NCBI GenBank assembly: GCA_017303905.1 | Contig: JAFLBH010000003.1 | Location: 372,001-436,000 of the forward strand | Source of the DNA: Bacteroidota bacterium | GTDB lineage: Bacteria > Bacteroidota > Bacteroidia > B-17B0 > Aurantibacillaceae | Reading direction: 5' to 3' | Length of the DNA: 64,000 nt | Made by a program: the position numbers and the translations under genes | Notes under the pieces: generated by a model | The model's input: the letters and a program-made list of their open reading frames with translations, nothing else | The model's database searches: none | Told to the model about the DNA's origin: nothing | Shown here: in pieces, positions 48,582 through 49,394 of the stretch | How the letters are laid out: each line of letters opens with the position of its first letter | Position numbering within the stretch: position 1 is the stretch's first letter

Positions 48582-48669
48582 ACTCACCCCGACCTCACTT
48601 TGTTCGGTCACCCCCTCTCTACGCGTAGAGAGGGGGAAAAGGCAAGCGTAGCGTACCTTGGGTGTTAGT
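48582..48669. repeat. Cloverleaf palindromic repeat, copy 1
   Basis: It begins ACTCACCCC and ends GGTGTTAGT (degraded right arm), around a perfect 26-bp palindromic core at 48611-48636 centred on ACGCGT. The outer stem is broken here, so this is the most decayed copy. Confidence 0.92.
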
Positions 48670-48707
48670 AATATACTTACAAAAACAAAATCATTACAAC
48701 TATTAAG

Positions 48708-48795
48708 ACTCACCCCCGACCTCACTGCGTTTGGTCACCCCCTCTCTACGCGTAGAGAGGGGAAAAGGCAAGCGTAGCGAGCCTTGGGGGTGAGT
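48708..48795. repeat. Cloverleaf palindromic repeat, copy 2
   Basis: Intact 88-bp copy: outer arms ACTCACCCCC and GGGGGTGAGT, inner hairpin GACC...GGTC, palindromic core (48739-48762), and hairpin AAGGC...GCCTT. Its last base is part of the stop codon of the DUF559 gene. Confidence 0.95.
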
Positions 48796-49142
48796 CAAAG
48801 TTTTCTAATTACCTTAACAACTTCATCTATCTCTTCATTCTTAAAACGAATAACTTTTAATCCCAAGCCTTCAATAATTTCATCGCGATCTTTATCATAT
48901 TCAGTTCTGAAATTATGTATTTCGCCATCTAACTCAATTACTAATTTTTTCTCGGCACAATAAAAATCAGCTATAAAAAACTTCAGATTAAAATTATCAT
49001 TTCCATAGACAATAGGATGCTGACGATTAAATTTTAAACCCTCCACTTTTCTATTACGCAATTTTCTCCACAAGTCCTTTTCCGCTAAGGTACTTTTTGC
49101 TCTAAGCATCCTACACCTTTCAATTACTTCCCGCATATTCAT
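48795..49142 (-). CDS. DUF559/Vsr-like endonuclease-domain protein (115 aa)
   Basis: Single-domain protein of the DUF559 group, related to very-short-patch-repair nucleases with a PD-(D/E)XK-like fold. Residues consistent with the active site are Glu21, Asp59 (FFIADFYC) and Glu70-Leu-Asp72 (KLVIELDGEIH); KFNRQHPI before them is the family's usual strand. Nuclease activity is inferred. The gene lies exactly between palindromic-repeat copies 2 and 3: the stop TGA overlaps the first base of copy 2 as read on the minus strand. TAATTTTG (49154-49147, minus) suggests a -7 element directly before the start, so the mRNA may be nearly leaderless; ATG at 49136 is an alternative. Confidence 0.85.
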   Translation of the reverse strand: MNMREVIERCRMLRAKSTLAEKDLWRKLRNRKVEGLKFNRQHPIVYGNDNFNLKFFIADFYCAEKKLVIELDGEIHNFRTEYDKDRDEIIEGLGLKVIRFKNEEIDEVVKVIRKL

Positions 49143-49199
49143 ACTACAAAATTATACTGCTTGAATTATTCCTGTTGCTATGATTTGTAGCTTTTGTAG

Positions 49200-49288
49200 A
49201 CTCACCCCCGACCTCACCTTGTTCGGCCACCCCCTCTCTACGCGTAGAGAGGGGGAAAAGTCAAGCGCAGCGCGACTTGGGGGTGAGT
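49200..49288. repeat. Cloverleaf palindromic repeat, copy 3
   Basis: Intact outer arms ACTCACCCCC/GGGGGTGAGT and 26-bp core (49230-49255). The right hairpin reads AAGTC...GACTT instead of AAGGC...GCCTT, a paired change that keeps the stem. Confidence 0.95.
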
Positions 49289-49317
49289 ATTATTTAAAAA
49301 CATTATTCTCATTATAA

Positions 49318-49394
49318 CTTGCCCCCGACTAGCCACCCCCTCTCTACGCGTAGAGAGGGGGAAAAGGCAAGCGAAGCGAGCCTTGGGGGTGAGT
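49318..49394. repeat. Cloverleaf palindromic repeat, copy 4 (internally deleted)
   Basis: Core at 49336-49361 and right hairpin AAGGC...GCCTT are intact, but about 13 bp of the left hairpin are missing and the left outer arm is changed (CTTGCCCCC). Its right end is 5 bp from the TGTCA motif upstream of groES. Confidence 0.92.

Follow-up and report, generated by a model that had tools for sequence, protein, structure and literature searches.

The stretch of DNA analyzed here (hereafter the window, 64,000 nucleotides of the genome of a Bacteroidota bacterium) carries, between positions 48582 and 49394, a small gene of the DUF559 family in the company of four palindromic repeats, an arrangement that the original prediction had placed correctly and that both sequence reading and a repeat search recover. 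The repeats measure 78-89 bp each and all lie on the forward strand: copy 1 (48582-48669) has a degenerate right outer stem, copy 2 (48708-48795) is intact and is closed by the outer stem ACTCACCCCC/GGGGGTGAGT, copy 3 (49200-49288) is also intact, and copy 4 (49317-49394) is shortened on its left side. They share the palindrome CCCCCTCTCTACGCGTAGAGAGGGGG, whose perfect symmetry extends to 26 nt except in copy 2, where it covers 24 nt. When folded as single strands of DNA, copies 2, 3 and 1 adopt a three-hairpin shape, with z-scores of -5.8, -4.8 and -3.2 against dinucleotide shuffles, none of 200 of which folded as well, so that the cloverleaf proposed for these copies stands well beyond what shuffled sequence gives. 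Furthermore, the right-hand stem AAGGC/GCCTT of copy 2 becomes AAGTC/GACTT in copy 3, a compensatory change. A reading of the window as RNA was discarded: its single Rfam match, MIR8643, reaches 33.6 bits against a gathering score of 135 and corresponds to a chance match on a palindrome.

The DUF559 gene (48795-49142) is encoded on the reverse strand as an intact open reading frame of 115 amino acids, whose only family match is DUF559 (PF04480, E=1.3e-29, with an EDxHD / Vsr-type fold) and whose stop codon, as had been noticed from the start, shares one base (48795) with copy 2. Upstream of the start codon, the conserved palindrome-like motif GCTACAAATCATAGCAA (49173-49191, reverse strand) was read by eye, as were resembling motifs ahead of several standalone DUF559 genes of the family; by inference, it is a putative promoter or operator. 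Motifs like GCTAYAAWTTATAGCAA occur tens of bases ahead of the DUF559 start at this same place in the window and at the loci L020, L021, L022, L067, L069, L070 and L102, and a similar one is also found near a Y1_Tnp gene (L299).

The encoded protein is predicted to have the PD-(D/E)XK nuclease fold, of the EDxHD / Vsr / I-Bth0305I type. A profile of 18 relatives matches the structure of Neisseria NGO0050 (3hrl) with E=1.1e-27 and the catalytic domain of the homing endonuclease I-Bth0305I (3r3p) with E=0.007, and an AlphaFold model of the window protein (pLDDT 90) can be aligned with 3hrl (Z 12.4), 3r3p (Z 9.4), Vsr (1cw0, Z 7.5) and TnsA (Z 6.7), bearing in mind that a Z below 8 is weak when taken alone. 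The fold (3r3p and 1cw0) and the conserved residues agree with the description of a "Vsr-like nuclease" made before; the match of the model to Vsr indicates kinship only, and cutting is inferred. The residues E21, E70, D72, H76 and D83 are all present, and these positions are nearly invariant in 140 DUF559 copies (97 embedded in other genes and 43 standalone), gathered with a homology profile that favours conserved ones. dN/dS lies at 0.01-0.2 wherever it could be computed. Judged from sequence, DUF559 is thus under strong purifying selection with an apparently complete active site, the cutting activity itself being untested.

Palindromes beside DUF559 genes

The rest of the source genome contains one more full cloverleaf copy and several half or divergent copies, as well as three more DUF559 genes, which have different GC-rich palindromes nearby, on both sides in two of the three cases. 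Altogether, GC-rich palindromic repeats of different families are found near each of the four DUF559 genes of this genome, and on both sides of three. Several solo copies are common to the source genome and to a sister genome about 95-96% identical to it (G052), and are therefore older than the split between the two. Copies elsewhere in the genome are thus present, and the linkage of DUF559 genes to repeats, the other point on which the original prediction was to be judged, proves strong across Bacteroidota and beyond.

The full alignment (A1) being too diverse to serve as a collection query, another one (A2) was used instead, and because the resulting set is biased to embedded copies, a separate standalone set was built. 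It consists of 36 measurable DUF559 genes, one per genome and from many Bacteroidota families, taken from the best-scoring matches of a DUF559 search, which introduces a mild bias. Hairpins (GC-rich, with arms of at least 7 bp) occur on both flanks of 21 of these genes, but of none of the 81 ORFs that accompany them at their loci (p=7e-14), and an identical GC-rich word of at least 13 nt is common to both flanks in 18/36 genes against 0/81 ORFs. For a second set, formed by 81 DUF559 domains from named GTDB genomes, the figures are 31/81 and 0/1481 windows.

It could be argued that DUF559 is a resident nuclease, serving repair or defence, whose intergenic flanks, as hot spots, terminators or repeat-rich regions, merely gather unrelated palindromes; the intergenic regions of Bacteroidota are indeed rich in palindromes, and kinship with Vsr suggests DNA repair. 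Nevertheless, none of the 81 neighbouring ORFs at these loci has hairpins on both flanks, and the idea is contradicted by the units found within conserved coding genes, whose ends are exact and reproducible (see below). We regard it as scarcely tenable.

Many unlike repeat families have DUF559 as their common partner. The window gene belongs to a supported clade (96*) together with four standalone genes of the same genus and family, and all the genes of this clade adjoin elements of the ACTCACCC / CTCTCT type, which is why the window cloverleaf is read as the gene-less form of its clade's element. The window gene stands between two complete cloverleafs, where its relatives have half-ends instead. 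Some genomes, such as G052, carry elements without a close DUF559.

Units in frame inside host genes

DUF559 units are also found in frame within other genes, in the order 5' CCTCACCCC-hairpin, DUF559, hairpin-GGGGTGAGG 3'. At least a dozen kinds of host gene, from isolates and MAGs, carry them: LeuRS (two sites), MetH (three sites), IleRS, PurL, AroC, RecG, UvrA, UvrC and HisA, and further HsdR, several restriction-system proteins, RecO, adenine deaminase and a methyltransferase, the names resting on our own reading of the sequences without a family search. By manual count from the table of matches, about 29 of the 97 DUF559 matches in the family genomes lie in open frames longer than 800 amino acids. 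Isolates of Hymenobacter, Rufibacter, Runella, Pedobacter, Flavobacterium and Marivirga carry units, and a pure MAG artefact is therefore ruled out. Units also occur in records titled Melainabacteria, Cyanobacteria, Chloroflexota, Spirochaetota, Myxococcota and Alphaproteobacteria, several of which are MAGs with possible contamination. As a separate observation, a RecG with an embedded DUF559 unit in Limnohabitans MAG20 (L274) groups with Flavobacterium, reflecting either contamination of the MAG or transfer.

In LeuRS, site 1 lies between KSEGTSLKFK and IEVFTTRPD and site 2 between RA.DWKY and TMPGWAG. A unit is present at site 1 in fifteen family genomes and at site 2 in five, one of these having both, while in other family genomes the same sites are empty, or hold either a palindrome on its own or two hairpins without a gene. 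The LeuRS of genome G020 has the gene-less form at site 1, and at site 2 a full unit whose repeats belong to the same family. That units land in pre-existing copies could not be demonstrated, the solo repeats at the LeuRS sites belonging mostly to other palindrome families. Nearly all family genomes searched give a single LeuRS match, and the interrupted LeuRS must therefore work. Two further features of this gene deserve mention: at site 1 in L129, L142, L146, L147 and L157, other Bacteroidota palindromes (CTTCGACTCCGCTCAGGGTGAC; CACCCTGAACTTGTTTCAGGGTC) lie in frame without DUF559, and a third variable region, at about reference residues 630-690 (L142-L181), contains insertions of 12-73 amino acids of unknown origin.

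The two LeuRS sites often hold palindromes without DUF559, and the source genome has two Y1_Tnp genes, so that DUF559 could be conceived as a passenger among palindromes mobilised in trans by another enzyme, either a RAYT/IS200-type Y1 transposase or an IS. However, the repeats that flank the two Y1_Tnp genes are of other kinds (GTCCCGTAGGGAC and CGCCCTT/AAGGGCG), and neither CTCACCCC nor CCCCTCTC was found within 1.5 kb of either gene. DUF559, moreover, is under strong purifying selection, keeps its active site complete and accompanies many unlike repeat families; we find the passenger role improbable. A RAYT as the partner of the window element in particular was rejected, the two Y1_Tnp genes of the source genome having different repeats. 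These RAYT-like genes, L298 (G000:C1:1771402) and L299 (G000:C5:325232), each stand beside their own REP-like repeats (AAAAAGTCCCGTAGGGACGACCT arrays; CGCCCTT/AAGGGCG).

The translations of LeuRS and MetH show DUF559 in frame with translated repeats on both sides, and the host reading frame is open throughout the embedded units. Hairpins on both sides of an insert could recall a splicing-like element, in which the embedded DUF559 would be removed by translational bypassing or by RNA-level processing at the hairpins, and for bypassing there are precedents in T4 gene 60 and in mobile bypassing elements. Yet bypassing does not require the host frame to stay open across the insert, as it does here, and neither an intron nor an intein, nor any intein motif, was seen in the embedded units. 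Removal of the insert is, in our judgment, very unlikely.

Unit ends and differences between genomes

The limits of the unit can be read in Ca. Caenarcanum bioreactoricola, which has three of them, in HisA, IleRS and a methyltransferase, the last two being 93% and 81% identical to the HisA unit. In the alignment of the three, conservation runs from CCTCACCCC to GGGGTGAGG with none beyond, homology starting and stopping exactly at the terminal inverted repeats. Besides the three units, a search of the 1.8 Mb of this organism returned a fourth, diverged domain, together with about 24 short matches, most of which correspond to the left hairpin end.

Sister genome G052 has no orthologue of the window DUF559, and its homology with the window picks up exactly after position 49394, the last base of copy 4. 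The left end of the insertion could not be placed in this comparison, as the G052 contig ends near the locus and the left flank is absent from the draft. At another DUF559 locus (L021), a stretch of 1159 nt in the source genome, containing DUF559 and repeats, is matched by 197 nt in G052. In general, intergenic empty-site comparisons are messy, with other repeats occupying the sites, and at these messy junctions with the sister genome no clear target-site duplication was found and no target motif was resolved. The locus L020 was rejected as a clean empty site, since the difference from G052 there is a 4.3-kb segment with other genes. This segment (G000:C1, about 1654875-1659140) comprises PorP/SprF-like, OmpA-like and DUF559 genes and is absent from the matching place in G052.

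The presence/absence differences with G052 and the spread to three genes within one genome support the mobile unit that had been proposed, movement being inferred by comparison. Of the original prediction, the REP/RAYT-like mobile unit with a Vsr-like nuclease is supported, and the gene conversion is neither shown nor excluded; its observation was right and its interpretation largely so, and both were far too local, the in-frame units within essential genes having escaped it.

On the DUF559 tree, host site changes number 36, against 86 with shuffled labels and 21 if each site had one origin, a rough count given the few columns and weak support of the tree. Embedded copies that share a site fall partly into clades, which indicates that many of them go back a long way by vertical descent and are not recent insertions. 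Clades by host site, observed for HsdR, RecG, MetH site 1 and most of PurL and AroC, together with the relatedness of DUF559 to I-Bth0305I, would suit a homing-type gene, in which DUF559 would cleave, at one site, the allele that lacks it and be copied there by allelic gene conversion, vertical descent and homing being broken only by rare jumps. Such a gene is difficult to reconcile with a dozen or more unrelated host genes plus many intergenic places, with three related units in three genes of Ca. Caenarcanum, and with many solo copies and no intron or intein seen, and we hold it to be unlikely.

A candidate class of miniature elements

We consider it probable that DUF559 genes and their flanking palindromes constitute a class of miniature selfish mobile elements, in which the nuclease would cut and host repair would copy the unit, through a joining mechanism that is unknown. 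The autonomous unit, of about 430-500 bp, would have at its core a single-domain PD-(D/E)XK nuclease of the EDxHD/Vsr type, with a GC-rich hairpin before it, a second one after it, and a terminal inverted repeat at each outer end, the terminal repeats being typically CCTCACCCC...GGGGTGAGG, and ACTCACCCCC...GGGGGTGAGT in the window clade. The window cloverleafs would be gene-less (MITE-like) derivatives of this same element, with the nuclease gene between two of them. The nuclease would cut either a target or the hairpin ends themselves, or close to these, and host repair would copy the unit into the break. Insertions would persist in intergenic DNA or, when in frame, in loops and at domain junctions of host proteins, of which they would become an additional translated domain. 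PD-(D/E)XK enzymes hydrolyse DNA, and TnsA is a precedent for this fold in transposition; as a hydrolytic nuclease without obvious strand-transfer activity, DUF559 would need a host or second enzyme. As far as sequence comparison can establish, the linkage of gene and palindromes, the limits of the unit, its in-frame placement in host genes, the presence/absence differences, the movement between non-homologous genes of one genome and the purifying selection with an intact active site are well grounded; that DUF559 catalyses the movement and recognises the hairpins, and the cut-and-repair route, are inferred.

Among known systems, REP/REPIN repeats and their RAYT (REPtrons) also have short palindromes, both next to a small gene for a single-domain nuclease and scattered around it, with repeat family and nuclease clade going together and mobility inferred by comparison, and DUF559 meets the feature of cognate palindromes that flank the gene and are dispersed in the genome. 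Two REPtron features are not met: the partner gene is not a Y1/HUH transposase (PF01797), DUF559 being of the PD-(D/E)XK type whereas RAYT is of the HUH/Y1 type, and the GTAG/CGTC terminal tag is lacking, the ends of the DUF559 element being ACTCACCCC/GGGGTGAGT or CCTCACCCC/GGGGTGAGG. Besides, the DUF559 unit has terminal inverted repeats of 9-11 bp and would move as gene plus ends, in frame in essential genes.

With I-Bth0305I, Vsr and NGO0050 (3hrl), DUF559 shares the nuclease fold and the conserved residues of E/D/H/D type, and with EDxHD homing endonucleases the selfish persistence inside conserved genes. Unlike the latter, it is neither in an intron or intein nor limited to one allelic site, and their defining feature is not met by a domain that lies uninterrupted in frame in many unlike genes and is intergenic elsewhere. 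Unlike the three nucleases, it is bordered by palindromes with gene-less relatives and consists of the catalytic domain alone, without a separate DNA-binding domain. MITEs and small IS resemble the DUF559 element in having terminal inverted repeats and both gene-carrying and gene-less copies, and differ from it in that the unit, of about 430-500 bp, has no DDE, serine or tyrosine transposase; a clear target-site duplication was not resolved at its messy junctions with the sister genome.

Rickettsia palindromic elements (RPEs) are palindromic repeats found in frame in functional proteins (PMC3733652). This feature is met by the palindromes of DUF559 units, which lie in frame in functional ORFs, and the DUF559 element differs in having an autonomous gene-carrying form, across several phyla. 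To our knowledge, RPEs have no nuclease gene. REP/RAYT, homing endonucleases and RPEs each fit partly and none fully, because a tested defining feature fails for the first two and the gene is missing from the third.

The fold of DUF559-type nucleases is not known to us to drive transposition alone. Classes of mobile elements are defined by their enzyme, and none known to us relies on a DUF559/EDxHD domain alone in combination with palindromic ends; on these grounds we take the DUF559 element to be categorically new, and a specialist could fairly speak of a REPtron-like variant. No account linking DUF559 to palindromes or mobility was found in the open-licence literature, mostly consulted as title and abstract, and a description elsewhere is possible.

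A broader proposition, on which we lean neither way, is that a lone EDxHD/Vsr-type nuclease domain needs nothing beyond its hairpin ends to act as a transposition module. Such modules would represent a new minimal element class (about 430 bp) across bacterial phyla, would be the source of the very common Bacteroidota palindromic repeats of the CCCTCTCC...GGAGAGGG type, and would enter essential enzymes in frame, forming there an extra domain that is not spliced out. If true, a new class of mobile elements would be built on a nuclease fold, the origin of the abundant palindromic repeats of Bacteroidota would be explained, and essential enzymes such as LeuRS and MetH would repeatedly tolerate an in-frame nuclease domain. 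In turn, DUF559, a large unexplained family, becomes directly testable.
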